This document shows, in pieces, positions 3,120 through 56,690 of a stretch of DNA of 64,000 bases (positions are counted from its first letter, which is position 1; each line of letters opens with the position of its first letter). The DNA is from Mesostigma viride (Eukaryota; Streptophyta; Mesostigmatophyceae; Mesostigmatales; Mesostigmataceae). The notes beneath the pieces were generated by a model, which did no database searches, was not told the DNA's origin, and was given only the letters and a program-made list of their open reading frames with translations. The stretch is from NCBI GenBank assembly GCA_009746045.1, contig RPFO01002130.1, positions 27,501 through 91,500 on the forward strand, in the 5' to 3' direction. The position numbers and the translations under genes are program-made.

Positions 3120-3128
3120 CTTCGCGCG

Positions 3129-5508: not shown

Positions 5509-5520
5509 ATCATTGCAAGG

Positions 5521-6007: not shown

Positions 6008-6100
6008 ATAGCTTATACCATCCATTCCATCCCATGTTCCCCTCCCACTGAGGACTTATGCTCACGTGACGCAGTCACGCGTCTATTAATTAATTAATTA
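5521..6100 (+). mobile_element. 5'-truncated LINE (family B) with (ATTA)n tail
   Basis: A 580 bp insertion flanked by a 12 bp duplication ATCATTGCAAGG (5509-5520 and 6101-6112) and ending in (ATTA)n. Its coding part (to 6007) resembles the end of ORF2 of the full-length LINE at 8372-19866: both carry a T-x-M-L-R motif, then E/D-L-P-x-V-(S/T)-H-x-I-x-H-R-R-L, then Q-P-G-R, then a W-rich tail. It is therefore a truncated relative of that element, with a different tetranucleotide tail. Confidence 0.85.
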
Positions 6101-6112
6101 ATCATTGCAAGG

Positions 6113-6755
6113 ATAAAGCCTGGCAGCACAATGTAATTAACTACAACACAAAACTACGACGTACACACAGCAAGACCTCTGCCGGCCCACCAGGCCGGGG
6201 AAGTGACCTACGCCACCTAGTGGGTCGCGACAAAGTCGAGATCAGCCCGGACGCGGCGGAATAACACATCAGCCACCTTTTACATCCGGCTGACCGCCGG
6301 CTAGATGAAAGATCTATACCTGATTCATAGCTGATTGCTGTAAACAATGGTCGCGACTTCATGGTAGGAACTAATCCCTGGAACAGGATGTGCATTACAT
6401 TAATCAGGACATTCCGGATCATGATAATGACATGTAGGTAATGACATGTATTGACCAGAACCAGGACCCATGTCAAATCCTAGTCTGCGGGCGTTGCCCC
6501 CTCGGAAAGTAGACGTGAGTCACTTTATGCCATTGCAATTAAACCGAGAGAGAGTAGGTAAATCAAACATCAACACCGATATGCCCGCCGTCATGCACCG
6601 TTGGAAGACGATGCACGACGCGTGCATGCATGATGCATAGATGATCGACCCACAACCAGGCCATCAGTGACACTCACAATCACAGACTGTTTCGGAATAG
6701 CAGTGGGTTGAAACCCACTCTTCCAACTAGCTACAAATGATAGAACACTGGAATG
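6113..6755. other. no gene recognised
   Basis: About 640 bp between the LINE fragment and an LTR remnant. Short open frames on both strands look random. One sequence similarity is visible: A-C-T-A-G-C-T-A-C-x-A-A-T-G at 6726-6739 recurs around 6781-6794 inside the neighbouring LTR. Confidence 0.4.
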
Positions 6756-7052
6756 TGTTATAAACCTGAAAGCCACAGGACTAGCTACGAATGGGCGTAC
6801 ACTGGAAAATGCCCTCTAGAGACCAAGGCTCAGCCCACCACATGGCTCGGCCTTGCTAGCCGGCGCTACACCATCTGCAGCGCCGGGCCCTGACCTACAC
6901 AACGTATGCTAGTAAAAGCACCACAGCTCCAACGTAGGCCAACCCCTGAAAAAGGGTGCGTTGAGCTAGCTACTCAAGTCTGACGACAGTATATTGTTAC
7001 TGCCAATATGCCCACTATAAAGAACCCTAAATAAAAAGGCTTGAACATAACA
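6756..7052 (-). repeat. LTR of a minus-strand LTR retroelement
   Basis: On the minus strand this segment starts TGTTATGTTC (7052) and ends GTTTATAACA (6756). That gives TG...CA ends with a short inverted repeat, as in LTRs. Directly before its start, in element sense, lies a purine run (complement of 7053-7068, C-T-C-T-T then nine C) that would serve as the polypurine tract. This places it as the 3' LTR of a minus-strand element. No second copy is present, and I could not find a target duplication, so the call rests on termini and tract alone. Confidence 0.5.
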
Positions 7053-8000
7053 CTCTTCCCCCCCCCATGGGGGACGGTGGAATCTGTTCGTAACGGTGGC
7101 ACGGGCCTTAAGGGGGATTACACTCCTTAATTAAGGGGGGAGCACGCACAACGCCACAACAGAAACAACGTGACAAACAGCCAGGTGACCACAAGAGCCC
7201 AGTAAGGCTTGATGCCCAGCAAACCAGAGTGACAGTAGGGGGGCCCACAGCTGCCCCGCCCGCGCCCGGGGTAAGGATCCACACACTAAAGCCAGAGCCC
7301 GGCCTAGTGATGGCCCAAGCTCCTCTGGCCCACCAGAACGCTACACCTGTCCCAGGTTTAATGACCACCTAACCATCTGCCAGTTGTACTGTGTGACGGC
7401 ACCCTGAAGCGAGAGTCCTGAGGTACTCATCATGCTGCTGACGTGCCCGCATCTCCCCGGGGTGGAAGTGTCGCGGTCCATGTTACAGTCCTGCAACACC
7501 CCACGCACCAGGACTTTGCCCTTCTCGCCCCGTCGCGTCAACACCGACGTACCGTATACCCGGTCCAAACCCTCAGTGCCATCAAACCAACCTGTTGCGG
7601 CACCAGGGAGGTCCTCCCAGGCCCCTGAGGGGGAGCTTGGGCAGGAACCAAAGGTCGGTTGGAAGAGCTGGAAGAAGGCCTCGCCAGGTGGGGACCTGAC
7701 GGCCCCGGTACCACCCCTGGACGGACGCTGGAAGGCCCCGTCACTGGGGGGCCTGAAGGCCCTGCAACCCTGGAACCACCCGCAACGGTCACAGCATCCA
7801 CCGGTAACGTCGCGCTGGTGACTGCCCCACGCCCAGCCCTTGAGGCGCGACGTGACTGGGTCCTGCATGCACTGTAAGGTGCAGAAGCCCCAGGTCCCGC
7901 CGCCGCTTGGGGAGTCCTCATCCGCTCCATCACCTTCTGGAGTAATTGAATAAAATTTTCTGAGACACCTGTTTGGATGACTATGGAATGCTGGAGCTCT
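7053..8000 (-). pseudogene. decayed 3' portion of an LTR retroelement
   Basis: The DNA upstream (in element sense) of the putative 3' LTR contains only broken open frames. The best are 7538-7933, a Pro/Ser/Gly-rich peptide with many P-S-G-P and P-V-x-G-P segments, and the overlapping 7341-8015. The composition is reminiscent of the Pro/Ala-rich ORF at 62445-63950, which also lies directly upstream of a polypurine tract and LTR-like end, but I see no alignable motif. No protease, RT or integrase motif is visible. The true end of the remnant is unclear. Confidence 0.35.
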
Positions 8001-8436
8001 AAGCACCCACCTCACTCAATTATGACACCATGCTTGAGACATGGGGCCTTTTTAATGCATCTCTTGTACATTTACATGTGTGAGGTGACCTTGGGTCCTA
8101 ATAGTTGTCTGACAGATTTTTTCTAAAGCATTGGGAATGGCTGCGTCCATTCAATGGCTGTGTACGTGTGTTTATGTTGAAACCCAAGAATTATAACTTT
8201 TAAGTGGGAGTTAGTCTAATTAGTCTCCCGCCTATAGCCTGTATAATAAGTGGACACGTGTCAGTGCCGCCGGCACCCAATTGGGTGCTGCATGGGTCGG
8301 TACTGGACTAGAGTTGTCTCCTTGATGTTAGGACTGCCAGATCAGGTTGTAACGGATATGATAGGCCAGTCTTAGTCAGAGAGCTTAGAATAATCTGCTG
8401 AGGATCATCTACCGCGAAATTCAAAATTGACATGCT

Positions 8437-9660
8437 ATGGCGGACGTAAACGACGATAACTACCACGTTTGGTCACCGAATGAGGTCGGATTTGTCACGA
8501 TCGACTCGCCATTCCACGACACATCGACCGAGCTCGGTCTTGAAGATGGTTACCAAGAAATCAGGGCGCGAAGAATTACCGCCTGCTGCCGGCATGCCGC
8601 CCGTGCAGGCGACGCCCCGCAGGCGCCAGCCATAGGAGAAGGAACGGGCAACTCTCAGGCTATGGAGTCTGCCGCCAAGAAACATGGGCCTAAATCCCCC
8701 CGTGGCCACACTGGCACAGCCCGGGCCCTGTTCGTCGCAGCCCCTGCCGACTCGGGGCACACCGATACTGAAGTCCGCAATGCACCCTTCGACGCTGCGG
8801 CATGCATTTGCTAACGGCACAGCTAATGTGCAAACCCTTCTGACCTTGTCTACGCTGGACCTCGTGGCTCTGCTCACCGAGATTATGCAACAAGGCCGGC
8901 CCCTACTCTGGCCTCAGCCACCGCCTGGGCTCACCGCCATTACCCCGGTTACCGACCCCAAGGACTTGACCTCCCTCAAGAAAAGTGAGTTGCGCGTCGT
9001 TGCCACGACGACGCTGCTGGGAAATTCGGAACTGCTGCCAGTATCCGGATCTGCAGCAGCAGCAGCCCTTGCCGGTACGGTGGCGCAGAAGCTTGCCACG
9101 GAGCTGATAAATTCTGATCTCGCAGGCCACTTGGCTGCGGCGATCGAGGACAACGTGGCGGACAAGGTGGCGGCCCAGGTCGCCGGCACGCTGACGGAGG
9201 CGGTTGCCGGCACCCTAGCGGCGCAGGTGGCCGGCAATTTAGCGGACAACGTGGAGGCGCAGGTGGCGAAGGTGGCCCTGTCCTACGCGACTATGGCCAG
9301 CACAGCCATCCAAGAAATAGCCACTACATAGCACTGCTCAGGCGGTCTCTAGGACCTTCGCCGACCGGGACAACAAAGAGCGGCGCGGCCGCACCATAAT
9401 TATTCGTAATGTGGCGGCCCTCCCCCGGGAGACGGGGCTGAGCCTCCGCCTCAAGGTGGAGAAGGAACTCATCACCAACTTCCGCCTAGAGGACAGTGTC
9501 ACAATTGACACCGTCCGCCGCCTACCGGGGCGCGCGGATGCGCCGGTGGCGCTCGTGCTTACGCGCCCCATCGGCAAGCACTATATTCTCCAACACCGCA
9601 CCAAGCTACCACGAGGCTTGCATGCATGGGTTGGAGTCTCGACGACGATCTGACCCCGGG
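8437..9660 (+). pseudogene. LINE ORF1-like protein (frameshifted)
   Basis: The reading starts with ATG 8437, 65 bp after the element's 5' end, and passes through at least three frames: 8437-8814, 8684-9331 and 9411-9653. The middle part (9040-9290) is Ala-rich with repeated V-A-G-T-L and D-N-V-A-D-K-V-A-A-Q-V units, probably an extended or coiled-coil region. The last part has a short R-x-L-P-G-R / L-T-R-P-I-G-K-H-Y-I-L / L-P-R-G stretch like the RNA-binding C-terminal domain of L1-type ORF1 proteins. In LINEs this protein coats the element RNA. Assignment is by position and general features; no zinc knuckle is visible. Confidence 0.55.
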
Positions 9661-10794: not shown

Positions 10795-13700
10795 GACAAT
10801 ACAAAAGATTCATAACTGCCAAATGTCACGCACCGGAATATTGCGCAAGCCACCAAGGCTTTGCGCCCCAAAGTCTTGCGCCTGAACCTAAGTCAGGTCA
10901 CCTAAGACTGTCACTCTAGAAATTCAGGCCTTTCCGGCGCGGCGCTCCACACCGGCCCAAGGAACAAAGCCTGCGGCCTACTGAATCGGAACCAACCAAA
11001 CGTCGGTAACGATTCCGATTACGGCAACCGCGTAACTTCTTGAGTGCACGGACGTAAATGATCACGGACGTGACAGCTGTCGCGTTTGCGTGCCATTATA
11101 TCCTAGCCTATCACTTGGAAGGCATATCCATAGCAATAGAGTACTCTTGTGTGTGATCCACTATATTCCCCCCCACTTTTTAGCTCGAAAAAATGAAGAG
11201 CCAAAAAGTCAAAAAGAGGATCACATAGGGAAAAAAAAATTCCCACGACAGGACCACACATGCTTTTCAAATAGGCTAAGCAATAACCTCTTCAGTGCTT
11301 TTTCAAGGATAAGCATAATCCTCTTCATGGCTTTTTCAAGGATAAGCCTAATCCTCTTCATAGCTTTTTAAAGGATAAGCTTAATCCTCTTCCAAGTGCT
11401 TGATTCTGCAAGCAGCTTGGGTATATCTCCGGCTCAGGCTGTCCGAACTGAACCCGCCAAGGGTTGTTCGCTCGTTTAAATAATGTGGAAATGATAGGTG
11501 TGGTCCTTGACGGCACCACCACCTTCATGACAGGCAGCGCAGCCAGCCGATATTTATATTATGAAGATTGCAATAATGCTTTATGATGAAAGCAAGGCCC
11601 AAACCATTCATTCCATAACATTTGACAAATTACAATGAATGCCGAGTTGTGCTGCCGCAACTGTAAGAGTAACTACATATCCTTGAGACCCATCGAAATC
11701 ACCACAGACCAACCATGACGCCACTGTGGCGCAACAGTGTTTACTTACGTCATAATCTATATCAACTGTGTGACTCTGCGCTCATGTCCCAGTTACTGGC
11801 ACACTGGCCAACGACGAACCGGCCCTTTCCCGGGACTGTTCCCGGGTCAGCAGAACGTTTCTCGTCCACAATGCCAACAACATCCCAACCGGATCAAACC
11901 ATTGTCAATCTTATCAACCATCGTCATGGCAACGACATGCAACCACTCACGGGGGCTGCTCCGGGCTGTTCGAGAAGTTTAACCCCATGAAGACAACAAA
12001 CTAGTTGTGAGGGAGAGAAACGAGCGAACAACGACCACCATGGCCGCTGCGCTGCTCCTAAATACCTCCAAAAATCCCGGCATCCATGCGCTGTCGCATT
12101 TGCCAGCAAGCCGCCTGACGTGCAGTTAGACTGCCAGCAAAATGCAGAGCAAGTCTGTTCGACAACCACGTGCGAGCCAGCACACCGCACACTACGATCT
12201 GCGTATCTAGCTTTGTCAGATGGACTGAACATCATTCCGTCTGGACAATACAAAAGATTCATAACTGCCAAATGTCACGCACCGGAATATTGCGCAAGCC
12301 ACCAAGGCTTTGCGCCCCAAAGTCTTGCGCCTGAACCTAAGTCAGGTCACCTAAGACTGTCACTCTAGAAATTCAGGCCTTTCCGGCGCGGCGCTCCACA
12401 CCGGCCCAAGGAACAAAGCCTGCGGCCTACTGAATCGGAACCAACCAAACGTCGGTAACGATTCCGATTACGGCAACCGCGTAACTTCTTGAGTGCACGG
12501 ACGTAAATGATCACGGACGTGACAGCTGTCGCGTTTGCGTGCCATTATATCCTAGCCTATCACTTGGAAGGCATATCCATAGCAATAGAGTACTCTTGTG
12601 TGTGATCCACTATATTCCCCCCCACTTTTTAGCTCGAAAAAATGAAGAGCCAAAAAGTCAAAAAGAGGATCACATAGGGAAAAAAAAATTCCCACGACAG
12701 GACCACACATGCTTTTCAAATAGGCTAAGCAATAACCTCTTCAGTGCTTTTTCAAGGATAAGCATAATCCTCTTCATGGCTTTTTCAAGGATAAGCCTAA
12801 TCCTCTTCATAGCTTTTTAAAGGATAAGCTTAATCCTCTTCCAAGTGCTTGATTCTGCAAGCAGCTTGGGTATATCTCCGGCTCAGGCTGTCCGAACTGA
12901 ACCCGCCAAGGGTTGTTCGCTCGTTTAAATAATGTGGAAATGATAGGTGTGGTCCTTGACGGCACCACCACCTTCATGACAGGCAGCGCAGCCAGCCGAT
13001 ATTTATATTATGAAGATTGCAATAATGCTTTATGATGAAAGCAAGGCCCAAACCATTCATTCCATAACATTTGACAAATTACAATGAATGCCGAGTTGTG
13101 CTGCCGCAACTGTAAGAGTAACTACATATCCTTGAGACCCATCGAAATCACCACAGACCAACCATGACGCCACTGTGGCGCAACAGTGTTTACTTACGTC
13201 ATAATCTATATCAACTGTGTGACTCTGCGCTCATGTCCCAGTTACTGGCACACTGGCCAACGACGAACCGGCCCTTTCCCGGGACTGTTCCCGGGTCAGC
13301 AGAACGTTTCTCGTCCACAATGCCAACAACATCCCAACCGGATCAAACCATTGTCAATCTTATCAACCATCGTCATGGCAACGACATGCAACCACTCACG
13401 GGGGCTGCTCCGGGCTGTTCGAGAAGTTTAACCCCATGAAGACAACAAACTAGTTGTGAGGGAGAGAAACGAGCGAACAACGACCACCATGGCCGCTGCG
13501 CTGCTCCTAAATACCTCCAAAAATCCCGGCATCCATGCGCTGTCGCATTTGCCAGCAAGCCGCCTGACGTGCAGTTAGACTGCCAGCAAAATGCAGAGCA
13601 AGTCTGTTCGACAACCACGTGCGAGCCAGCACACCGCACACTACGATCTGCGTATCTAGCTTTGTCAGATGGACTGAACATCATTCCGTCTGGACAATAC

Positions 13701-13974
13701 AAAAGATTCATAACTGCCAAATGTCACGCACCGGAATATTGCGCAAGCCACCAAGGCTTTGCGCCCCAAAGTCTTGCGCCTGAACCTAAGTCAGGTCACC
13801 TAAGACTGTCACTCTAGAAATTCAGGCCTTTCCGGCGCGGCGCTCCACACCGGCCCAAGGAACAAAGCCTGCGGCCTACTGAATCGGAACCAACCAAACG
13901 TCGGTAACGATTCCGATTACGGCAACCGCGTAACTTCTTGAGTGCACGGACGTAAATGATCACGGACGTGACAG
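10795..13974. mobile_element. tandem 1449 bp LTR-like repeat (2.2 copies)
   Basis: A 282 bp segment (GACAATACAAAAGATTC...GGACGTGACAG) occurs at 10795-11076, 12244-12525 and 13693-13974. The 1167 bp between the first two copies is repeated between the second and third, so the layout is LTR-int-LTR-int-LTR with a 1449 bp period. Copies look identical by eye. No coding region over about 115 codons and no RT motif are present. Three imperfect ~45 bp repeats built on GGATAAGC-x-TAATCC occur at 11307-11395 and again one period later. It interrupts the LINE endonuclease. Candidates are a tandem non-autonomous LTR element or a Penelope-type tandem; a TGAC duplication (10794-10797, 13982-13985) is only suggestive. 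Confidence 0.7.
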
Positions 13975-34835: not shown

Positions 34836-34840
34836 CTCAG

Positions 34841-34868
34841 CCCCATGCACACCTGGATTTGTACTACA
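34841..34868 (+). repeat. left terminal inverted repeat of the 8.6 kb transposon
   Basis: 28 bp, identical to the complement of 43427-43454. Starts CCCCATGCACACC. Host DNA with the CTCAG duplication precedes it. Confidence 0.92.
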
Positions 34869-34962
34869 GCACAAGTACAAATTGATTTTTTTCAACTTTG
34901 TTATTTTGTACCTCTCTTAGGTCCAAAGGTAGGAGGTAAGTGTCTCATCATGTTTTGACACC

Positions 34963-35330
34963 GTTGCACCGTTGCACCGTTGCACCGTTGCACCGTTGCA
35001 CCATAAAACTACCATTTTATGATTTTGTATGGTGTCACGAGGTAACCTAACGTCCAATACTAATGTTATAATGTCCACAAGCACTGCCTAAAGTGGGGTG
35101 CCACTGTGCCACCGTTGCACCGTTGCACCGTTGCACCGTTGCACCGTTGCACCATAAAACTACCATTTTATGATGCTGTATGGTGTCACGAGGTAACATA
35201 ACGTCCAATACTAATGTTATATTGCCCACAAGCACTGCCCAACGTGGGGTGCCACTGTGCCACCGTTGCACCGTTGCACCGTTGCACCGTTGCACCGTTG
35301 CACCGTTGCACCGTTGCACCGTGCCACCGT
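34963..35330 (+). repeat. left subterminal minisatellite, GTTGCACC orientation
   Basis: Three blocks of a tandem 8-mer (GTTGCACC on the plus strand) at about 34963-35001, 35112-35152 and 35262-35322. They alternate with a ~110 bp spacer (A-C-C-A-T-A-A-A-A-C-T-A-C-C-A-T-T-T-T ... G-G-G-G-T-G-C-C-A-C), giving a higher-order unit of about 150 bp. The same 8-mer lies near the right end in the opposite orientation. Repeated subterminal motifs often serve as transposase-binding sites. Confidence 0.85.
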
Positions 35331-35589
35331 GACATGTCTTGACACATCATTTGTTGACTTTTCCTACGCAAGTAATGCAAGCACATGGCAAAATAAAATA
35401 TTGATGATGATTACTTGAGACAAATATTAATTGATTATCAGCATTGTCTCCAATGTCTCCTACATGTAACATATGGAGAAGCAAGTACTACGTGATCGCA
35501 ACCACAATTCCTTTGTTCGCCAACTAATACATCACAGCATAAAAAAGCTGAATAAATGGCTGAAAACTGACAAAGAGGTGCAAACACGA

Positions 35590-36790
35590 TCAATATGAAC
35601 ATGAACCATAATAAACTGGTTCCCCTCGCTCATTTGCATCTTGCGAGTACGGCTGATGCCTTTTCCGCGATGGAGGGGCGGGGGGCGGGGGGCGGGGGGC
35701 GCTGCGAGCACGCATGCGTTCATCATCAAAGTTGCTGTGAGTCGTGAGACGAGTATGCTGAGTTGCTGCATAATGTCCCTCAGCATAATGTGGCCTATCT
35801 GGCTCCCTCGTGGCGGCATAACGGTAAGCGCCCTGCAAGGGCTCACCGTGGGCCATATAATAGGAGTCATAAGGCTCGTACAGGCCATGCGATTCATCTT
35901 GCCAATCCAGCTTCCTTGCCTCATCGATCGCGGGTGCGCGCGTGCGCGGCTCTGGCTCATCTTGCCAATCCAGCTTCCTTGCCCCATCCATCGCGGGTGC
36001 GCGCTTGCGCGGCTCTGGCTCACGGCGTGCCGGCTGCCATTCTGCCCCCTGCATGCCGGTGAAGCCTTCACGTTGCCGCAATGTGGGAGGCGCAGCAGGA
36101 ATGGTCGGCCGGTGAATCTCCGTGCCGCGGCTTGAGGTTGGAGCACATTCAACAGGCGTGCATGGCACTCGTTCCCTTTCCAAAGCATCAACCCTCTCCG
36201 TCAGGGATTTGACCTGTTCCTTCAGCTTCGCAGTCGCGGGGTTCTCTGGGGCGGCAGCCGGCTTTGCACGCGCTGCCAATGATGATTGGCACTTGGAAAC
36301 CTTTGCATTCAAATCAGCGATCTGCATAGCCACAGACGGCGGCGCCTTCTTCCTCCCTTGCTTCGCTTGAAACCCCACCCAGTCCTTCAGCTCTGCGATT
36401 GCTGCCTGTGCTGCTTGCAACCCCTGAGTAAGGGGCGCTAGCCACTTTGCCGGGGGAGCTGCCGGGGGAGCTGCCGGGGGAGCTGCTGGCATCGCACTCT
36501 CGGACGGTGCTGACTTTGCTGCGCGAGGCGGCAGTGCCTTCCCGCCCTGGTATTCAAGCTGGCGTGCAGGGCGCAAGCTCCGCTGGCCCCCCCCCCCGCC
36601 GCCGTCGAGGCGCGCTTCTTGGGCTTGACGGGTGATGTTTGTTCCTCGCTGCCATCGTCACCCCCCCTTCCCCATCATTGTGCTCCTCCTCCACCTCCTC
36701 TTCATCCTCCAGGTCATAGCTGGCATCGCCCCCGCTTTCATCTTCATCTTCATCTTCATCGGATGGAGCAGGCGGGACGACAGCGAGCAC
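35590..36790 (-). CDS. partner gene A, exon 3 (acidic/basic, coiled coil)
   Basis: The exon begins after the acceptor TTTACAATTCAG (exon start 36790) and reads V-L-A-V-V-P-P-A-P-S. An acidic run follows (D-E-D-E-D-E-D-E-S and E-D-E-E-E-V-E-E-E), then a basic R-R-R-R-G-G cluster resembling a nuclear localisation signal. At an 11-C run (36587-36597, plus strand) the frame ends soon after (stop 36554), while a 328-codon frame continues to 35590. A one-base change in the run, real or a sequence error, would join them. The second part has P-P-A-A-P-P-A-A-P-P-A, a coiled-coil-like K-L-K-E-Q-V-K-S-L-T-E-R-V-D-A-L-E-R-E, and a ~21-residue duplication (E-P-E-P-R-x-R-A-P-A ... K-L-D-W-Q-D). Function unknown. 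Confidence 0.55.
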
Positions 36791-37008
36791 CTGAATTGTA
36801 AACATGCACGCATACAGAGATTGACATTTTACATCAACAATAATTAATGTTTTATGGTGCTTACAAATAGAGTGCTCCTGATGGTGTCTTCTAGTATGCA
36901 CATTGATAATATGCGCCAGTGTGGTTTGCGCTCGGCTGCGGTTGGATTGCGCATGGCATGTTCTAGCATATGAATGTCAACAATGCAAAACCGATCTGAG
37001 ATACTTAC

Positions 37009-37773
37009 AAGATAGCCCTGCCCGGTGGTCTTGTTGGTCGCGCTCCTTAACTGGTTGATGCGCGACTCCTGGCGGGTAAACACTGACGTGATGTCCGCCA
37101 TGGCATCCGCCAAGGTAGTACTCGAATGGCAATGCAATTCGGCGGTGGCGGCAGGGTCAACCGTCAAGTTATATGGTCGGCACCACGCTACACGGATTTC
37201 ACCGGAGGCGAATGAGGTAACCGTCCATTCTCCTTCCCCGCAGCTGTAAATGGGACGCACCAACGCCACAAAGGACTGGTACTCATGGCCAGTGCTGGCT
37301 GCCCTCACACAAGCGAGTCCGAGGATGACAAGCCGCACAACGGTGTTGCCCGTGGGAGTGGCACGCAGGTCACGCATTAGCTCAGGATCCGCATGACTGC
37401 AGATGTCACCGATGGAGAACGACGTCACCTTGGCGGTGCTACGAGAGCCAGCCTTTTTGCACGAAACATACAGCGGAGGCCAGTCACTCTTGGTGTCTAG
37501 TTGGGCCAGGGAATCCTTTTCATCAGACAGCGTGTAGAAGTTGTGAGCTCGTGTGATGTTGTGCTCTGGAACGGTTATCTGAGGAATACCGTTGATGAAC
37601 CTGCTGTTGGTTGGAAAACCCTTGCCCACGTCGAGCATGTGAAGCACAACTGGCTTGGCCGCAGTAGCACCCCGGGATGCAATCGAGAGGCTGCCGGCTC
37701 CCTTCACGAGCACCCCCAAATATCCCAGATACTTGACGAGGCACTTGTGCGCAGGTGGGTCCTGCGATGCTGC
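37009..37773 (-). CDS. partner gene A, exon 2
   Basis: 255 codons between a likely acceptor (GAATTGCAACAG before 37773) and the donor CTT-GTAAGT (exon end 37009). Both boundaries fall between codons, so the phase matches exons 1 and 3. The peptide runs A-A-S-Q-D-P-P-A-H-K-C ... G-Q-G-Y-L. It contains paired Cys and His residues (V-S-C-K-K-A-G, I-C-S-H-A-D, Y-S-C-G-E-G-E-W) but no motif I can name. The open frame extends past the donor to 36844, but the strong GTAAGT and the following acceptor argue for splicing. The product may act with the transposase. Confidence 0.6.
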
Positions 37774-37834
37774 CTGTTGCAATTCAACAGCAATAGCACA
37801 AGCAATGTCATGATTCCAAACGCCAAGAACTGCA

Positions 37835-38035
37835 CTTAGTAATATTCCTTTGGTAAAATGCAATTCAAGAGCAATAGCACAAGCAATGTCATGATTCCAA
37901 ACGCCAAGAACTGCACTTATTGTAATATTCCTTTGGTAAAATGCAATTCAAGAGCAATAGCACAAGCAATGTCATGATTCCAAACGCCAAGAACTGCACT
38001 TATTGTAATATTCCTTTGGTAAAATAACAACCGGA
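37835..38035 (-). repeat. ~80 bp direct repeat in gene A intron 1
   Basis: A unit containing C-A-A-T-A-G-C-A-C-A-A-G-C-A-A-T-G-T-C-A-T-G occurs about three times between 37780 and 38030, spaced ~80 bp. The first partial unit overlaps the start of exon 2, so the repeat was made by duplicating the intron-exon junction, including the acceptor region. This could create alternative acceptor sites. Confidence 0.75.
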
Positions 38036-38056
38036 TTTCCCCTGTCATAAATTTAC

Positions 38057-38338
38057 CTGAGATTTCCCATCCGTTTTGGCTGTTTGCTCGGTTTCCTCAT
38101 CCGAAGCACCGGAGGCATTCATTCTATGAAGTTCATTGACTGCTCCCCTGACGTACACGTTTGATGCCCTTTGCTTCTGTACTTCATCACCTACAGCGCC
38201 CACTGATACAGGGCCTGTATCCATTGTGTTCTCTTGCCCCGGTGGTGCTACTGCGTCCTGTTCACTGGCATGCTCCACATGTCCGGCATCCCCGCCATTG
38301 TTTTCAATACCTGCCTGCGGCTGCACGCCGCTAGCCAT
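38057..38338 (-). CDS. partner gene A, exon 1
   Basis: 94 codons from ATG 38338 (M-A-S-G-V-Q-P-Q-A-G) to the donor CTCAG-GTAAAT (exon end 38057). The exon is acidic and polar, with D-E-E-T-E-Q-T-A-K-T-D-G near its end. It ends on a codon boundary. The gene is transcribed away from the central palindrome, divergent from gene B. An ATG is also present at internal codon 39. Confidence 0.6.
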
Positions 38339-38499
38339 TCTCAGCTATCCGGATTTCCGAACTACGCCAATACCTGGCCAGAATGGCTGAAAATTTCCAC
38401 GAAATGCATCCAAGTGCACGAATTATTGAGTCGGTGGTGGCACCATGGCACGGAGTACAAATGGGTGGTGGCACGCCGTGCCACCGGTGGTGGTGGCAC

Positions 38500-38778
38500 G
38501 GTGCAACGGTGCAACGGTGCAACGGTGCAACGGTGCAACGGTGCAACGGTGCAACGGTGCAACGGTGCAACGGCCAGTGATTGGCCCGTAGTTGATTTTG
38601 TGATATGCGCCTAGTAAAAATTGGCCGCAAATCTTGTGCCCACGTACGACCGGACGAATTTGCGGCCAATTTTTACTAGGCTGCATGTCAGCAAATCAAG
38701 AACGGGCCAATCACTGGCCGTTGCACCGTTGCACCGTTGCACCGTTGCACCGTTGCACCGTTGCACCGTTGCACCACC
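38500..38778. repeat. central palindrome with inverted minisatellite arms
   Basis: Left arm: (GGTGCAAC)n followed by GGCCAGTGATTGGCCCG... and TAGTAAAAATTGGCCGCAAAT. Right arm: ATTTGCGGCCAATTTTTACTA ... CGGGCCAATCACTGGCC followed by (GTTGCACC)n. The arms are separated by about 25 bp (38631-38656). The structure lies between the two divergent gene starts (38338 and 38983), so it could hold a shared promoter. It might also be a remnant of two elements joined end to end. Confidence 0.8.
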
Positions 38779-38830
38779 AAATTTTCCTGGCCAGAATGCC
38801 CTGTCTTTGCATGTAAAGGATAATTATGAT

Positions 38831-39012
38831 AATGAACCAGCGATGGAAGCAAGGGGATAATGAACCAGCGATGGAAGCACCAGCGATGGAAGCGATGGAA
38901 GCGATGGAAGCTGGAGGGGGAGGGGGAGGGGGAGGGGGAGGGGGAGGGGGCGGCCGTATAATATTACGCAGTTCCTAAAGCCATGTATTATTACGCAGTT
39001 CCTAAAGCCATG
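38831..39012 (+). repeat. short repeats upstream of gene B start
   Basis: Copies of A-A-C-C-A-G-C-G-A-T-G-G-A-A-G-C occur at 38835-38910. A (GGGGGA)n run follows (38914-38950). A direct duplication of ATTACGCAGTTCCTAAAGCC comes next (38967 and 38991 onward), creating two in-frame ATGs at 38983 and 39010. Confidence 0.8.
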
Positions 39013-40689
39013 AAGGGCCTGGGCATTATGGAGCCCGATGCGGGGGCGCAGGTTTTTGGAATGCTATTCTCGCTGCTTGTCCTGGTGGTCGTGTTGCTCG
39101 TCATGGCGAGACGAGGGCTCCGTCTTAGCGCTGCCGCCGTCTTAGCAAAATGCACCACAGATGCGTCCTGTGCTGCGGCACTTAGCAGGGACTGGGACTG
39201 TGGGTGTGGCCGCCATTGTTTGCGAAGCGTGCATTTCGAGGAGATAAGAGCGATGAGGACCGACATGTGGTCTAAGAAGCCTGCGGATCGGAAAGAGTTT
39301 ATAAAGAACCAGCTTTTTCAGGCCGGCCAGCGAGAAACTGAAATTCCGGGGAGCTTGCGTCACAAACGCAGTCGAGATGAGGGCTTCCTTTTCGCAGTGG
39401 ATGGCTACGTTACTTACCCAGCTGACAGGCATCAGCCAGAGTCGGCAACCCCGTTTCGGCATCGCATGTGTGAAGCCGCTTTCCGCCGTGCTTTGTATAT
39501 CAACCCCAATATGTGGCACGCGGCTGTCAAGGAGACAACCCGCCCTCGACCTTTGCCTGGTGATCGTGATTTGGAGTCCGGCTTGGGTAGCACTGCTGGA
39601 CGGCGCATTGGGGTATCCCGGTCAGTGTCTGCCAAGATTGGGGAGGCCAAGGCGCTTTGTGAGCTGTGGATTCGGCGTTGGTTCTGCCCAGCAGTTGAGA
39701 AGGATCCCCGGGATGGCGCCAGCATCATTGAGCAACCGTGCAAGAAGACTTTATACTCGGACTACACTGCAGAGCAGCAGGACTACGGAACACCTGTAGT
39801 TAGCATGTCGCTTTTCAGGAAAATTTTTGAAGCAGTGAGAGTAAGCATGCGAGTCCGGATTGAGAAATATCGCACGAAAATTATGGGTGAGTGCTCCCGC
39901 TGCCGGAAGTTAAAGGATGCCATCTTGTCTTATCGTACCACTGACCGGGCCCGGTGGGAGGCTTTCAAAGAGAAGTTAGCTGATCACACCGACTTCTTTA
40001 ATGGGGAACGGATGGCTTACCTGCAACGAAGGTTTGAGGGCGCCAAGCACTATTTTGTTTCCATAGTCATCGATGGTCTGGCGAAAATGAAGACGGCGGT
40101 TCCAACCAGGGGCAGCGCCTCGAAAGAGTGGCTTAGCAGCCGCAAGCTACATATACCCTACCAGCTGGTTTGCTCGATTTTGCATGGAGTGAGGACGTAC
40201 TTCTGGGTGATTATGCCTTGGGTAGCCAATTCTGAGGTTTCTGGTAATTCAGGGCGTGTCACTGCGACGCTGCTCACACACCAATTGTTGGAAGTGGTGG
40301 TTGAGCGACCATGGGAAAGGTCCCGCAATCCTGAGATCCGCGAGTTTGGCCTTGCCACGACACTCGTCCTTCAAGTGGACGGGGGTGGGGACAACATGAA
40401 TAGCGAGCTATTGGGCTTTCTAGCGGTTCTCATTAACCGCCGTCTCTTTTCTCTCATCAGGGTGTGCCGCCTGCCCCCGGGGCACACCCATAATGACGCT
40501 GATCAGAGATTTGGTTGGTTTATCCGGTGGTACAACGGGATGAAGAACCGCGTGTCAGATCTCGCACCGGTGCTCATGCTGACATTTCAAGATGTGTTGC
40601 AAGGGCTGACGCGTGCCTTTGCACACTACTACGAGCAAGGCCCATTCGGGAGCATGGCGACAATAAACCCACTGCCGCCATCTGCCAAG
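38983..40689 (+). CDS. transposase-like gene B, exon 1 (DDD/E core)
   Basis: 569 codons ending at the donor AAG-GTTGGT. Likely catalytic core: I-V-I-D-G-L-A-K-M-K (D364), L-Q-V-D-G-G-G-D-N-M-N (D466, D470, N471), and L-P-P-G-H-T-H-N-D-A-D-Q-R-F (H501-F510, D505 and D507). The G-H-T-H-x-D-x-D-Q motif is typical of DUF7869-type proteins of algae and protists, which look like RNase H-fold transposases. C304-S-R-C307 is a possible zinc knuckle half. Residues about 24-43 are hydrophobic, odd for a transposase; the start could be at 39010 or 39031 but the segment stays included. The role would be cutting and joining the 28 bp termini in the nucleus. Confidence 0.75.
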
Positions 40690-40827
40690 GTTGGTTTTCT
40701 TTAAAATACTATGAATTTCTTCCGGGTTCTTCTTCTTTTCCATATGTAGCATGCCATAGTTAACCAATAATCACCTTGCTTACTCGCCTCTTATTGCAAC
40801 TGTTTGTTCTATGCTTGTTGCTTGCAG
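40690..40827 (+). other. gene B intron (138 bp)
   Basis: GT-AG intron: donor AAG-GTTGGTTTTC, acceptor TTGTTGCTTGCAG-CTCGTC after a pyrimidine-rich stretch. It contains an in-frame stop (40702) and is flanked by codon-boundary exon ends, so splicing joins the two long frames (P-P-S-A-K then L-V-N-A-A-L-D-F). Confidence 0.8.
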
Positions 40828-42498
40828 CTCGTCAATGCAGCGCTGGACTTCACAACGTGGCTTCGAGGCTGCATAGACCCAGATCTTGGGCGTTGGGTCA
40901 AGTCTGCTGACGTGGTTATGGACGCGTCAACCAACCAACCTGTGGTGGAGCATCGGCCGGTCAGCAAGATATTTGATATCGAGCTATTCGGCCATCACGA
41001 TGAAGGTGCAGGGGCGGACGTTGGTGATGACTGCTTTTTGCGCTACCGACTTGCCACGGCAGAGGCGTTAGCTGATGTGCCCGCCAACTGTTGGAGGCCT
41101 CTTGGGCCGAACGAGGAGCCATGCGACATGGTTACTGTCTCTTCGAAGCGTGTGAGTGATGGCAAAGAGCTCCGCGGCGTGCTAGTCATGGAGGCGACCA
41201 AGGCGCCCAAGGGCAGCCCAGGTGTTGCCGCGTTTGCGGATTGGGATGGCGATCGCGCAATCCGCCGTCATTGCTCTAAACTCAACCGAGTGTTTCCAGA
41301 CATCATGACGGATGCAAAGCAAGCAGAGCTCAACGAGGAGATCCGCGGCTTCCCCGCTGAGCCGGAGCAAGTGGAAGAAGAAGCGTCGGTGTTTGACCGC
41401 ATGATCCAAGCTCTGACGGAGTGCAGGGAGCAGCAAAAACACAAGCCCCTCCCTTTTTGCCTCCACAGTGCAGGGGATCAGGCGGTGATGCGGGCTGCCC
41501 GTGCTTTGGAAGCGCCGCTGCACCCAATTATCAGCCATGCAGGCAACCGCCGGCACGAGGTGCAAACTGCCATTCACCGGGCGCGACGCGAGGCTGAGCG
41601 CCTGCCGGCCGCATCTGCCACGCCTGCCACGCTTGCCTCCAATCCTCCTACTGGAGTTGCCTCCAATTCTCCTGCGGATGCCACCGGTGGTGCACGGACC
41701 ATTGCGACTGCGGATCATATTTTTTCCGTAAATCCCGGCATTATCTCCCGCGGAGACTTTCTCATCATCAAGAGACCTGCGGTGACGTGCGGGGAAGGCA
41801 TGCCCTGGCCAGAGGAGCTCTTGGTGAAGGTCGTGGATGCGTCTACTGTTCGTTCACGCGGGACTCTGACTGTTTCCGTGTTTTACTCACCCTCCTGGGA
41901 AGGGCAGTTTAACAAGCTCTCGCTCGCAGGCGGTGGGCCGGGCCTGACGGTGTCGGCATCGGAAATCATCGTTCAACACTGGACAGTTGGTGCATCAGGG
42001 CAGGCTGTCCACACTCCGTCGCTGACAGCAGCACGTAAGCTATCTCGTGCAACCCTCCAGGCCTTAGATGACCATCCACACGTGCACTTTGCTGGTTTTC
42101 AAACACAGCAAGCTGCTGCAGCGACGTCAAAAGCTGCATGTGCGGCACACTTTGTTGAGCACGGGCTGCACGCGCTGAAAGGGAGAAGGCTGTGCGCCTT
42201 GTGGGGTGCTGCCAAGACCCGTTTTCACGGGTGGGTCACAGAAGTACATGAGAATGGCGGGGCTTTGAAGATCGAGACGGTTTGGTCCGACGGCAAGGGA
42301 GCGACGTACACCACGTTGGAGGAAGTCTTAAAGTTCATCTGCGGGTGCCCTCATGCGGCTAATGCCTTTGGCCGCGAAAAGTTTTTTCAGGATGGTGCCG
42401 CGGCCGACGCTGAGACGGGGGCGGAAGAGCCCCAACTTTCTTTTGTTTGTGAGAGTAGCGAGAGTAGCGATGATGAGGAGGAGGAAGCATGGGAATGA
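40828..42498 (+). CDS. transposase-like gene B, exon 2 (C-terminal half)
   Basis: 556 codons continuing exon 1 in frame, giving a protein of about 1125 residues. Recognisable parts are a charged helical region (E-E-I-R-G-F-P-A-E-P-E-Q-V-E-E-E), an Ala/Pro/Thr linker, a G-D-F-L-I-I-K-R-P segment, and L-K-G-R-R-L-C-A-L-W-G-A-A followed by F-H-G-W-V-T-E-V and V-W-S-D-G-K-G-A-T-Y. That last segment looks like a small beta-barrel (Tudor/SH3-like) but is not a certain assignment. It ends in an acidic S-S-D-D-E-E-E-E-A-W-E tail. Such additions could contact chromatin or the repeat arrays; that is inference. Confidence 0.65.
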   Translation, partial: LVNAALDFTTWLRGCIDPDLGRWVKSADVVMDASTNQPVVEHRPVSKIFDIELFGHHDEGAGADVGDDCFLRYRLATAEALADVPANCWRPLGPNEEPCDMVTVSSKRVSDGKELRGVLVMEATKAPKGSPGVAAFADWDGDRAIRRHCSKLNRVFPDIMTDAKQAELNEEIRGFPAEPEQVEEEASVFDRMIQALTECREQQKHKPLPFCLHSAGDQAVMRAARALEAPLHPIISHAGNRRHEVQTAIHRARREAERLPAASATPATLASNPPTGVASNSPADATGGARTIATADHIFSVNPGIISRGDFLIIKRPAVTCGEGMPWPEELLVKVVDASTVRSRGTLTVSVFYSPSWEGQFNKLSLAGGGPGLTVSASEIIVQHWTVGASGQAVHTPSLTAARKLSRATLQALDDHPHVHFAGFQTQQAAAATSKAACAAHFVEHGLHALKGRRLCALWGAAKTRFHGWVTEVHENGGALKIETVWSDGKGATYTTLEEVLKFICGCPHAANAFGREKFFQDGAAADAETGAEEPQLSFVCESSESSDDEEEEAWE

Positions 42499-42789
42499 TG
42501 GGGAATGTGTGAAAGCTTCGATAGGAGTAAAGGCGTCTCTTTGTCCTGTCAAGCATGCTAGTCTTGTTGCAAGAATGAAGCCCAACATGCCAACTGTCCA
42601 TGCATGGTCATGTTGCATAATGGTGGGCATAAGATACATGTGTTTGCTAGTGGCCATGTTTTACACGGAAATGGATTTACGTTCAGTATGTGATTCAATG
42701 ACATGTGATTATTTTGGTTGATGCATGCAAATTTATACCCCATGATAACCAATGCACGTGCAAAGATGTGTGTTTATATGCAATTTAAG

Positions 42790-43336
42790 GTGCAACGGTG
42801 CAACGGTGCAACGGTGCAACGGTGCAACGGTGCAACGGTGCAACGGTGTCATGAGCATCTAGGTAACCCTTGCATGACCCATCCACCTACATAAAACCCA
42901 TGGATAACAATTGCATGTGCAAAGGTGTGTGTTTATATGCAATTTGAGGTGCAACGGTGCAACGGTGCAACGGTGCAACGGTGCCACGGTGCCAAGGTGG
43001 CACGGTGGCACGATGCCACGATGCAACGGTGTCATGAGCATGTCTAGGTAACCCTTGCATGACCCATTACCCTAGATAGATCCCAATGGATAACCATTGT
43101 ATGTGCAAAGGTGTGTGTTTATATGCAATTTGAGGTGCAACGGTGCAACGGTGCAACGGTGCAACGGTGCAACGGCGCCACGGTGGCACGGTGTCATGAG
43201 CATCTAGGTAACCCTTGCATGACCCATCCACCTACATAAATCCCATGGATAACCATTGCATGTGCAAACGTGTGTGCATATATGCAATTTGAGGTGCAAC
43301 GGTGCAACGGTGCAACGGTGCAACGGTGCAACGGCC
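42790..43336 (+). repeat. right subterminal minisatellite, GGTGCAAC orientation
   Basis: Four blocks of the 8-mer (GGTGCAAC on the plus strand) at about 42791-42847, 42950-43030, 43133-43190 and 43291-43335. They alternate with a ~100 bp spacer containing C-A-T-G-A-G-C-A-T-C-T-A-G-G-T-A-A-C-C-C and G-T-G-T-G-T-T-T-A-T-A-T-G-C-A-A-T-T-T. The orientation is opposite to the left-end array. Some units have point changes (GGTGCCAC, GGTGGCAC). Confidence 0.85.
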
Positions 43337-43426
43337 GCCGACGAACTTTTTTTTCCTCAAAGACTTTAGTTGACCCTTTAAATGCATGAAAATGCAACTT
43401 TCAAAACTGAAGTACAATTTGAAAAA

Positions 43427-43454
43427 TGTAGTACAAATCCAGGTGTGCATGGGG
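43427..43454 (-). repeat. right terminal inverted repeat of the 8.6 kb transposon
   Basis: 28 bp complement of 34841-34868, followed by CTCAG at 43455-43459. Sequence identity to the left terminus stops exactly at 28 bp on the inner side. Confidence 0.92.
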
Positions 43455-43459
43455 CTCAG

Positions 43460-48340: not shown

Positions 48341-48642
48341 GATGGATGGGTGCAAACAGTCCTAGGTACCAGTCTAATCTATCTACAACAGCTATGGGCT
48401 GGGTATGTTTCGGGGATGATTAGGGGTCATTTGGGTACCAAAATACTAGCCCATGTACAGGTGCGTGTATAGACTCAGTATACACTAAATATATACTGGG
48501 CAGTATTTCGACCATGAAATACTGTATATGGCCATCCCTAGCGGCGTGGGACACAACAACAACAACAACAACAACAACAACTCTACAGTAGAGTAGAGTT
48601 GAGTTGAGTTAAGTCCCGCACCGGCACTAGTGTATTGCCTGA

Positions 48643-49963
<1,321 letters not shown>

Positions 49964-52946: not shown

Positions 52947-53520
52947 GTTCGCCGGCGAGGAGGAGGACGAGTACCTCGACGACCCTGATGATGGCTACAC
53001 TGACCAGGGTGTCAACGCGATCGACGCTAGCAAGGCGCGGTGCTTCATGTGCAGTGAGGTGGGACACCTCAAGCGCGACTGCCCCAAGCTCCGGGGCAAG
53101 CACGCCAGTCGTGGTGCAGGGGATAAGGAACCCAGTGCTCGCTTCTCCGGTCCAGCCTTCGGCAGCCGCCCCGACTCCTCCGGTCCCCGGGACCGACCCC
53201 GCAACGCGGGTGAGCGTGCGGCTCGCCTGCAGCATGCCAGACAGGTCCCGACTCAGTACCAGCAGCCGCGACCACCCGCGACTAGCTCTACCAAGGGCGT
53301 GTTGCGCGCGGTCAGCGAGATTGAGGCGCCGCGACAGTCCTCCTCTTCCGGCCAGACGCACGCCGTGGCTGGCTATACGAGTATGACGACGAGGAGGAGG
53401 CTGACGAAGAGGAGGAGGGGAGGGAAGAGGGCGGGCGGTCGGGCGAGGCGGCCTCCCGTCCCACCGCTCCTCGGGAGTAGTAGCCTTGCCCGTGGGCTTG
53501 GGCCCCGGGGTAGGGGATAG
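52924..53520 (+). CDS. Gypsy nucleocapsid zinc knuckle region
   Basis: Contains C-F-M-C-S-E-V-G-H-L-K-R-D-C (C40, C43, H48, C53), a classical CCHC knuckle that binds element RNA, followed by Arg/Pro/Ser-rich sequence. An acidic D-E-Y-L-D-D-P-D-D-G precedes it. The frame overlaps the capsid frame by 23 bp and pol by 35 bp. Confidence 0.75.
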   Translation: MNQMYSTEFAGEEEDEYLDDPDDGYTDQGVNAIDASKARCFMCSEVGHLKRDCPKLRGKHASRGAGDKEPSARFSGPAFGSRPDSSGPRDRPRNAGERAARLQHARQVPTQYQQPRPPATSSTKGVLRAVSEIEAPRQSSSSGQTHAVAGYTSMTTRRRLTKRRRGGKRAGGRARRPPVPPLLGSSSLARGLGPRGRG

Positions 53521-55640
53521 GGTAGAAAAATCAGATGGTAGTCCAGACGCGGAGTCAACTAGAGTAGAGGTAGACGTCAACAACGTGGCCTCAGACGCGT
53601 CCACTCAACCGGCGGCGCGTGCATCTCAAGGAGGCTCGCGACATTTGTTTCTTTTCAGTGGAGGGTTACTGGTTCCTCCCACCGTCCTTGATCCGTATTT
53701 GAAGGAGAAAACGGTCATGGACGTGAAGTTTCTGGTTGACACCGGTGCCTCCACGTCCTTCATCAACGAGGCCCTGGTGCGCCGGCTGGGCCTGGTACCA
53801 CAACCACACACCACGGCAGTGTATGTCACCTATTCGGACGGCCGGCGACACCAATCGCCGGGCCTAGCAGACATCAAGGGTGTGCTGCAGGGCACGCCGG
53901 TGGACCTGGTGGCGACTATTGCGCCGCTGGGCGCTGCCGACATCATCATTGGAGTGGACTGGTTGGACAAGCAGGATGTGGACATCAGTGTGCGCCGACG
54001 GGTAGTTTGGTTCCCGGATGGTTCCTTCTGGTGCCCCGACAGCGAGTACAGGGCACAGGCCGCTGAGGTCCATAACATTACACACGAGCGCTCGGCGGAC
54101 GGGCCTCGACCAGCGTCCCAGATCCTGATGAGTAGCAAGACGCTGGCGCGCCAGCTCCGGAAGGGCAAGGAGTATGCGATGTACCGAATAGACCTGGACA
54201 GCACTCAGGCTATGCTTAATGAGATCGGGGCCGGCTTCAATCCGGACGAGCTGGCGCGGTTCAACGCCGTCCTGGAGAAGCGCGCTACTCTCTTCGCGGA
54301 TCGCACCCCCCAGTTCCCTCCCAATCGATCGGTGCTACACCGTATCCAGGTCCAGGAGGGTTCCGGGCCGACAGCGTCTCCCATGTACCGCATGGGCCCA
54401 GTCGAGCTGGTGGAGCTCAAGAAGATCCTCATTTCGCTGCTCGACGCCGGGCTCATTGAACCCAGCAACAGCCCCTTCTCAGCGGGCGTGCTGCTTGTTC
54501 CCAAGCCAGGGGGCAAGTGGCGTCTGGTGACTGACTACCGGAAGCTGAACGCCATCACTGTCAAGTCCCGGTATCCTCTACCGCGGATCGACGACATCTT
54601 CAACCGTGTCCAAGGGGCTACGTGTTTCACCGTCATCGACTGTGCGGACGGGTTTTGGCAGCTGCGCATCGCGCCAGAAGACTGCCACAAGACCGCGTTC
54701 GCCACGCCCTTCGGTCACTACCAGTTTCGGGTGGCGGCAATGGGGCTGTGTAATTCGCCTGCGTCCTTCCAGATGCTGATGAACGACATCCTCCGTCCGG
54801 TGATGGGCACAGCCCACCTGCCGCAGGTCTCCAAGGATCTGACGGACCCGCAGAAGGGGGCGCGCCCGCCCTGGACCTACAAGCGCACGTGCGCGCTGGC
54901 GTATCTGGACGACATCCTGGTGTACTCCAAGACGTTCGAGGAGCACCTGGAGGATGTTGACGCAGTGCTGCAGATCATGGAAGACGAGCACCTGTCGGCG
55001 CGGAAGGCCAAGGTGCGCGCCGGTCGCTGGGTGCCGTTTCTGGGCCATACCCTGTCCGCGGACGGCATCGCGACCGACCCGGAGAAGATCGAGGCTGTCC
55101 AGCAATGGCCGGTCCCTACGGACGTGAAAGGGGTGCGCAGTTTCCTGGGGTTGGCATCCTACTACCGGCAGTTCATCCCGAGGTTTGCCACCATCGCCGC
55201 CCCGATCAACGCTCTTCTCAAGAAGGGTACCCCGTTCCTTTGGGCTGAGCAGTGCCAACAGGCTTTCGAGGCACTTAAGCGCCACCTCACCACAGCGCCG
55301 GTCCTTGTCCTGCCGGACCCGTCCCTTCCTTTCGTCGTGGCTACTGACGCCAGCAAGGTGGCCATCGGGGGTGTTCTCCTGCAGGACCAAGGCAAGGGCC
55401 TTCAGCCCATCGAGTACATCTCACGCACAATGATTCCGGCGGAGCGGAATTATCCAGTGCATCAGCAGGAACTCCTGGCAGTAGTCAACAGCTGCCACAC
55501 GCGGCGTCATCATCTCCTGGGGGCCCAGTTTTCGGTGGCCATTAGTGAGCAGGGGGATCTCGACCCCCACCGCCTGGTAATCCACACGGACCACCGGCCG
55601 CTCACCCACCTCCTGCCAGGTGCAGCCCAACCTGACGCCC
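53486..55640 (+). CDS. Gypsy pol: protease, RT, RNase H
   Basis: The longest Gypsy frame. Protease: F-L-V-D-T-G-A-S-T-S-F-I (D85) and I-I-G-V-D-W-L. RT: Y-R-K-L-N-A-I-T-V, Y-P-L-P-R-I-D-D, F-T-V-I-D-C-A-D-G-F-W-Q, F-R-V-A-A-M-G-L-C-N-S-P-A-S-F-Q and Y-L-D-D-I-L-V-Y-S (Y473-S481). RNase H: V-A-T-D-A-S (D621), Y-P-V-H-Q-Q-E-L-L-A and H-T-D-H-R-P-L. About 25 extra residues lie before the Y-L-D-D motif compared with typical Gypsy RTs. At about 55620 the frame is lost: the expected L-T-P-R-Q-A-R-W and Q-F-A-P-F segments lie in other frames. The methionine at 53486 overlaps gag and may not be used. Confidence 0.9.
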
Positions 55641-55668
55641 CGCCAGGCGCGGTGGATGGATCGAGTAC

Positions 55669-56690
55669 TTGTCACAGTTTGCGCCGTTCAAGATCCAATA
55701 TGTCAAGGGCGCGGACAACGTGGTGCCCGACGCCCTCTCGCGACGGGCGGACTATTGGTTCTACGAGGACATGGACGTGCTGCATACCACCTGTGTACCA
55801 GTGGCCGCCCCGGGGACCGCCTACGGTGTGGAACCACGGTCTCCCCGGGCCCGCCACCTGTTTCATCTTGGGCACACCACCATGGATGACTTGTCACCCC
55901 TCCTGGAGGAGCCGGTTCGGCCAAGCGCCCACGAGGACGTGGACACCCCCGGGGAGGGGGAGGGGTCGCATACGCGCGTGCCCCTTAGTCACGTGGTGCC
56001 GCCCCAGGGAATTTTTCAGCTTCAGCCGCTCGGCCCTCCCACAGTCTTCTCAGAATTCGTCAACCAGGCGAGTACGGATGCGGCGGAACCGGCTGCGGAC
56101 GCGTTCACAGTCACGTCGGACCTGGAGACGATGATCAGTCGTTTCACGGTCACGGAGGAAGCGGCGCTTGAAGCCATCCGGGCGCACCCCCAGCAGATGG
56201 GTGCCTACCCTTGCAAGTTCCAGGATGGGCGCCTGTTCGTGAGTGTCCAGCCGGAGGAATGGCGGCTGTATGTCCCTGAGCTTTGTAGGGACGCGTTGCT
56301 GCACGAGCTCCATGATTCCCTCCTAGGCGGACATCAAGGAAGCCACCTCCTCCTTCCCCGGGCCCGCAAGCATTTCTACTGGCCAGGGATGAAGGAGTAT
56401 ATCGAGACGTATGTGCGCCAGTGCCCCTCGTGCCAGATCATGAAGTCCAGGAACACGGGCTCTCAAGCCGTCCCTAAGACGCTGCCGGATCCTATGGGTC
56501 CTTGGGATTCTATCATGACGGACTTCATCGGCCCGTTTAAGAAGACGAAGAGCGGCTGGGCACCAAGGTCTTGGTGTTCGTGGACCGCCTGACGCGCATG
56601 TGTCACTTGGCCCCGTGTCCGGTCGACCTCACAGCGGAGGAGTGCGCCAAGATATACCTGACGCACGTGTTTCGGTTTCACGGGCTCTGC
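55669..56690 (+). pseudogene. Gypsy RNase H end and integrase N-terminal part
   Basis: Begins S-Q-F-A-P-F-K-I-Q-Y-V-K-G-A-D-N-V-V-P-D-A-L-S-R, the classical RNase H end. H-E-L-H-D-S-L-L-G-G-H-Q-G and C-P-S-C-Q form the HHCC zinc domain of integrase (about 56300-56440). G-P-W-D-S-I-M-T-D-F-I-G-P starts the catalytic core with its first Asp. An indel near 56565 shifts the frame; V-F-V-D-R-L-T-R-M then continues. The domain is cut at 56691 by a Copia insertion. Confidence 0.85.

Follow-up and report, generated by a model that had tools for sequence, protein, structure and literature searches.

An element of 8614 bp (34841-43454) in a 64,000-nucleotide stretch of the genome of the streptophyte alga Mesostigma viride (contig RPFO01002130.1; this whole stretch is called the window below) is very probably a recently active, autonomous cut-and-paste DNA transposon, with a transposase of the DDD type that we infer to be its DUF7869 protein. 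We base this reading on the ends of the element, its copies elsewhere in the genome, the duplications that adjoin them, the intact frames, the order of the repeat arrays and the homology of the protein core. We also see a slightly better than even chance that the element is the founding member of an undescribed eukaryotic superfamily, characterised by a DUF7869 transposase and a mirror-symmetric plan of arrays, in which case the DUF7869 proteins of other eukaryotes would be transposases or descendants of transposases. In this plan, two divergent genes lie around a palindrome, each bracketed by inverted arrays of an 8-bp unit, and the plan is kept in copies that lack the genes. Such an element would suggest a likely mechanism for a domain so far labelled as being of unknown function and would extend the DDE/D transposons by a probable superfamily, and its near-identical intact copies are material for testing activity. 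The features of the element are collected in Table 1.

Table 1 Positions, within the window, of the features of the element
Feature	Position	Strand	Details
Left flank duplication CTCAG	34836-34840		5 bp, window copy; family norm 3 bp
Left terminal inverted repeat	34841-34868	+	28 bp, perfect match to right end
Left subterminal arrays, 8-bp unit CACCGTTG	34959-35330	+	34959-35002, 35110-35153, 35261-35330; within 151-bp tandem repeats
Divergent partner gene (model)	35593-38338	-	Exon 1 38338-38057, exon 2 37773-37009, exon 3 from 36790
83-bp tandem repeat, 3 copies	37778-38025		Inside partner intron 1
Central palindrome between the two genes	38498-38775		GGTGCAAC-type array 38498-38573, CACCGTTG-type array 38718-38775
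DUF7869 transposase (inferred function)	38983-42498	+	Exons 38983-40689, 40828-42498; intron 40690-40827; 1125 aa
N-terminal cysteine cluster C73-G-C75-x3-C79	39199-39219	+	Putative zinc site
CxxC (C304, C307)	39892-39903	+	
D364	40072-40074	+	Candidate first catalytic acid
D466	40378-40380	+	Candidate second catalytic acid
GHTHNDAD (residues 500-507)	40480-40503	+	D505 / D507, candidates for third catalytic acid
Right subterminal arrays of GGTGCAAC	42789-43334	+	42789-42848, 42948-43031, 43134-43193, 43293-43334; inverted with respect to left arrays
Right terminal inverted repeat	43427-43454	-	28 bp, perfect match to left end
Right flank duplication CTCAG	43455-43459		5 bp, window copy

Ends, copies and target-site duplications

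A first-pass annotation of the window had proposed a complete two-gene DNA transposon with exact ends, recognised by perfect inverted termini of 28 bp and by CTCAG on either side. Both of these features are present as described, and the proposal gains strength from other copies that share the terminal inverted repeat (TIR) ends, 19 of 20 of them with an adjoining short duplication. When the first 24 bases of the TIR were sought within the window with up to 3 mismatches allowed, only the two ends matched, and 100 shuffles gave no match. If the flanks are joined with a single CTCAG, a 161-aa frame on the minus strand and a 129-aa frame on the plus strand cross the site, the remaining frames across it being of 54-106 aa, while one 206-aa frame ends there; this gives weak support to insertion into formerly continuous sequence. 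An Rfam search of the window returned 0 matches.

Elsewhere in the window, a Tubulin-tyrosine ligase family protein is encoded at 3093-4943, and 10795-13974 is a long tandem duplication (1731 bp match the same sequence at 100% when shifted by 1449 bp). At 48583-49419, a very long trinucleotide repeat leaves several frames open on both strands, and a frame at 53405-56134 with matches to reverse transcriptase, RNase H and aspartyl protease marks a retroelement, which we take to be probably of the Gypsy type.

Copies were sought by comparing the left 365 bp of the element with the Mesostigma viride genome (440 Mb, 2243 contigs); 40 of 310 candidates were scored, and counts of this kind are lower bounds. 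There are at least 40 left ends (the window included) with 93-100% identity, the matches running from the start of the element to the end of the query. Thirty of the 39 other copies were read: for 20 of them a stretch of up to 10 kb was taken, and for 10 the reading was confined to the two end regions. Their ends were located through TIR similarity. Both ends were found in 20 of the 30 (13 of the 20 long stretches and seven of the 10 end-only copies), and in the other 10 there was no right end within the stretch read. In copy L034, the right end is 17 kb from the left end, the two being paired on the basis of distance and a matching CAT; between them is an 8.4-kb insertion (at about 880-9276 of the stretch), the frames of which have what we presume to be a retroelement-like look. 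Some copies have flanks in common (L025/L026/L030, C141/C318 and L038/C476).

A 3-bp duplication lies directly outside the ends in 19 of the 20 further copies with both ends (18 of 19 if a repeated locus is left out, as the flanks of C476 repeat those of L038 and the two may be the same insertion); the copy at C1579:7648643 has none. The duplicated words CCC, TCC, GGG, TAT, CCT, AGG, CAT, GCT and CTT occur once each, and ACG, CAA, ATG, AAG and GTT twice each (the GTT pair being the repeated locus), so there is no fixed target word among the 19 three-base duplications. A second duplication length also matches in L020, L032 and L039. The flanks of the window copy match at 5 bp and not at 3 bp, and 5 bp had earlier been taken as the target length; with further copies compared, of which 19 of 20 have 3 bp and one none, we reject 5 bp as the family's target length, and the 5-bp duplication is an exception of the window copy. 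A combination expected of DDE/D cut-and-paste transposons as a class, TIRs with duplications of fixed length in several copies, is found in this family, with 3 bp as the length.

Gene content and the order of the arrays

Twelve two-ended copies were read whole, two with both genes and ten with neither. The former (L024, 8597 bp, and L029, 8558 bp) are about 98.6% identical to the window element over nearly its full length. The ten gene-less copies, of 6.6-9.1 kb, match the window only at the left (about 460 bp), in the centre (about 270 bp) and at the right (about 700 bp); they gave no protein match to the transposase or the partner at E 1e-6 and, among the pairs listed, are alike over most of their length. 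Of the other eight long stretches, in which both ends were not found or lie far apart, L023 has kept both genes and lost its right end, L025-L028 retain the partner together with part of the transposase, L030 and L034 show, over the length read, the 3' portion of the partner, and L035 shows, over the length read, neither gene. L035 also has, on its minus strand at about 3.5-4.6 kb, a frame with SDNCAVQFKSR and GEQHGKGEVDGQG that, by these motifs, may represent another transposase-like family.

The transposase frame of 1125 codons is unbroken in four copies (the window, L023, L024 and L029), and the intron sites that differ from those of the window number 0 in L023, 2 in L024 and 0 in L029. Between the window and L024 there are 2 silent and 9 replacing changes, and in all six pairs of intact copies the replacing changes are never fewer than the silent ones. 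The intact frames would therefore speak for recent movement rather than for a measured purifying selection.

The inverted minisatellites of the first-pass annotation are not only present, but more regular than it had described. In all 13 elements compared (the window and 12 copies), whether or not they carry genes, the order is CACCGTTG at the left, GGTGCAAC and then CACCGTTG in the centre and GGTGCAAC at the right, and the central palindrome, the arms of which (38516-38608 and 38683-38775) are 95% complementary, is retained in the gene-less copies. The plus strand of the window has one occurrence each of CACCGTTG and GGTGCAAC outside the element. Both termini read CCC[CT]A in 13 of 13, and within each of these elements the fourth base is the same at both ends (both C or both T). 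The persistence of array order and palindrome in copies without genes hints at an unusual need in cis, one open to direct testing.

It had been suggested that finding the termini without the two genes, as parts of unrelated repeats, would count against a single element. The termini do stand without the genes in 10 of the 12 two-ended copies read whole, yet these ten agree with the gene-bearing copies in their ends, their centre and the order of their arrays, and for this reason look like non-autonomous relatives of the element rather than unrelated repeats. Other genes in their two slots are not supported: in the five of the ten copies for which frames of at least 150 aa were listed (L020, L021, L031, L032 and L033), these are mostly repeat-coded and up to 314 aa long, and by inspection none is recognisable as a transposase. 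A 163-aa frame of L032 has, we presume, a LINE-like look.

The divergent spliced partner gene proposed earlier stands as a multi-exon divergent gene, and its 3' part rests on a predicted third intron. The model reads through an acidic stretch and then, by way of that intron, into a coiled-coil-like frame (36657-35593); at the change of frame, L023, L024 and L029 have the same bases as the window. None of the partner frames had a Pfam match above cut-off (a FlxA-like match, at E 0.006, was below it), and no relative of the partner was found in the fetched loci of the DUF7869 relatives considered next.

The DUF7869 protein and its relatives

In the spliced protein, D364, D466, D470, N471 and GHTHNDADQ (from residue 500) are all where the first-pass annotation had placed them. 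The Pfam domain DUF7869 matches at E 4e-11 (43.3 bits, against a gathering cut-off of 26) over residues 463-520 of the stop-to-stop frame, which correspond to profile positions 56-114 of 192 only and cover the stretch from D466 to GHTHxDxD; up to E 10, exon 1 had no Pfam match besides this one and exon 2 had none. By this match, the 1125-aa protein is a DUF7869 protein and not an orphan. In Pfam (PF25273), DUF7869 is only a named domain, whereas here it occurs within an element for which ends, duplications and copies can be defined; no mention of DUF7869, PF25273 or three further accessions for such proteins was found in the open-licence papers searched.

Relatives were sought in a bacterial and archaeal collection with a back-translated GHTHxDxD(I/V) pattern, which matched eight contigs. 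Four of these (L006, L009, L010 and L011) code for DUF7869 proteins, with a best E per contig of 1.7e-42 to 5e-15 (another piece of L010, at E 0.009, fell below cut-off), and the window protein matches those of L009 and L011 at E 8e-18 and 1e-12. The remaining pattern matches (L004, L005, L007 and L008) were dropped as chance, as were the three loci of a separate search (L001-L003). The four contigs are filed under bacterial MAGs and are probably eukaryotic contamination, because the frames look intron-broken in three of the four and because of the content of the contigs. A search of viral and phage collections yielded nothing useful.

L006, L009, L010 and L011 keep D364, D466, H501, H503, D505 and D507 in each row that extends over the residue in question. 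The window protein and all four relatives have a C-x3-C close to the N-terminus, and a CxxC ahead of the first acid is seen in three of the relatives (L006, L009 and L010). The C-terminal part of the window protein is similar to the end of its counterpart in L011, a protein with Tudor/Agenet matches below threshold. As judged by inspection, the features that surround the acids are arranged in an order consistent with an RNase H core. AlphaFold models, from a single sequence and from a six-row alignment, were of low confidence (pLDDT 39.7 and 41.6), and Foldseek searches with these low-confidence models found nothing at E <= 0.001, their top match (0.019) being to an unrelated protein; a sequence search of the PDB found no match up to E 10.

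Around the genes of the four relatives, on their short contigs, no TIR of at least 12 bp with a flanking duplication was found. A palindromic repeat of about 21 bp occurs seven times in L006, three before the DUF7869 frame, four after it and none inside (at most one copy was seen in 200 base shuffles); as repeats that flank a DUF7869 frame, these are suggestive only.

Two further stretches in the Mesostigma viride genome resemble the transposase. Beside the L023 copy (L023/L041, G000:C2122, about 506.1-508.7 kb) is a relative that lacks the catalytic core and has 43% identity across 499 columns in the C-terminal half; going by this divergence, it is a second, diverged lineage. A weak match to the C-terminal half at L030 4693-5157 (25% over 159 columns, E 3e-4) possibly represents a third.

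Mechanism, and affinities with known transposons

How might such an element move? We suggest that the DUF7869 protein, with a putative RNase H-type DDD core (D364, D466 and either D505 or D507), would cut the element at its CCC[CT]A ends and join these to target bonds with a stagger that is usually 3 bp and, in the case of the window copy, 5 bp. The 8-bp arrays may be binding sites that order the ends, and the partner protein, read away from the shared central palindrome, might by analogy be what binds them. The second protein of CACTA-type elements binds such sites. The gene-less relatives would have been moved in trans by the same machinery, and the transposase may bind zinc.

The element might instead belong to a described superfamily (EnSpm/CACTA, Academ, Zator, Harbinger, KDZ or a Repbase entry) with a transposase that has diverged beyond recognition by Pfam. 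Duplications of 3 bp also occur in EnSpm, Harbinger, Zator and AcademX, as far as the excerpted descriptions go, and CACTA elements, too, are large, with two genes and with subterminal repeats near both ends, but we consider this origin unlikely: DUF7869 was the sole profile found in the two exons up to E 10, a CAC terminus is absent, D466 is separated from D505 or D507 by only 38 or 40 residues, with a single Cys and neither C(2)C nor H(3-4)H among them, neither TNA nor ANT describes the 19 duplications, and those of KDZ are, in the same excerpts, longer. Much less probable still is a passenger role for the DUF7869 protein, with the element moved by some other transposase that uses the same ends. 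The gene is absent from 10 of the 12 two-ended copies read whole, so that their ends have moved without it in cis; against this, the DUF7869 frame has the only DDD arrangement recognised in the element and is kept intact in the gene-bearing copies read whole, and no transposase-like frame stood out among those of at least 150 aa in the five gene-less copies listed. A segmental duplication or satellite-rich block with inverted ends by chance, which the wealth of tandem repeats in the element and the shared flanks of some copies might bring to mind, can be given almost no credence when the same ends recur in many flanks that differ from one another, 19 of 20 copies having matching 3-bp duplications, and any non-transposon reading is in our view refuted by the copies in differing flanks.

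Taking the element, then, as a DUF7869 transposon, we compared it with described groups, relying for the list of superfamilies and their duplication lengths on excerpts of PMC12730594, PMC10045372 and PMC4455052, and for reports of KDZ or EnSpm elements in algae and for the target rule of Harbinger on excerpts of PMC12477816 and PMC8226300. As described in the first three excerpts, piggyBac resembles the element in its CC..GG termini and differs in its 4-bp duplications; the element has no piggyBac Pfam match. For Zator (ISAzo13-type transposases), compared by profile only, there was no Pfam match up to E 10. KDZ elements are likewise eukaryotic DNA transposons, found in algae among others (according to the excerpts of PMC12477816 and PMC8226300), but their duplications are given as 7-8 bp (in those of PMC12730594, PMC10045372 and PMC4455052) against 3 bp here, and there was no KDZ Pfam match up to E 10. 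AcademX, with duplications of 3-4 bp in the latter excerpts, is similar to the element in this respect; a nuclease (AcademX) or helicase (AcademH) is described there beside the transposase, whereas neither was matched by Pfam in exons 1 and 2 up to E 10 or in the partner frames up to E 1, this comparison being one with descriptions. The 3-bp target of PIF/Harbinger is TNA or ANT (excerpts of PMC12477816 and PMC8226300), and 0 of the 19 three-base duplications of the element fit it.

EnSpm/CACTA has several features in common with the element: to the large two-gene plan and the subterminal repeats are added the 3-bp duplications given for EnSpm/CACTA in the excerpts of PMC12730594, PMC10045372 and PMC4455052. 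It differs in that the termini of CACTA elements start with CAC, whereas those of all 13 of the present elements read CCC[CT]A; in that C(2)C and H(3-4)H are described, in the same excerpts, between the second D and the last E, whereas residues 466-507 of the DUF7869 protein hold one Cys (C495) and HTH; in the lack of an EnSpm Pfam match; and in the divergence of the two genes around a palindrome. The earlier statement that no standard superfamily fits is thus plausible, none having been matched by Pfam profiles or by published descriptions, and so is a superfamily outside those described. On these profiles and descriptions, the best reading seems to be that the DUF7869 element works in the manner of CACTA, yet stands outside the families with which it was compared.
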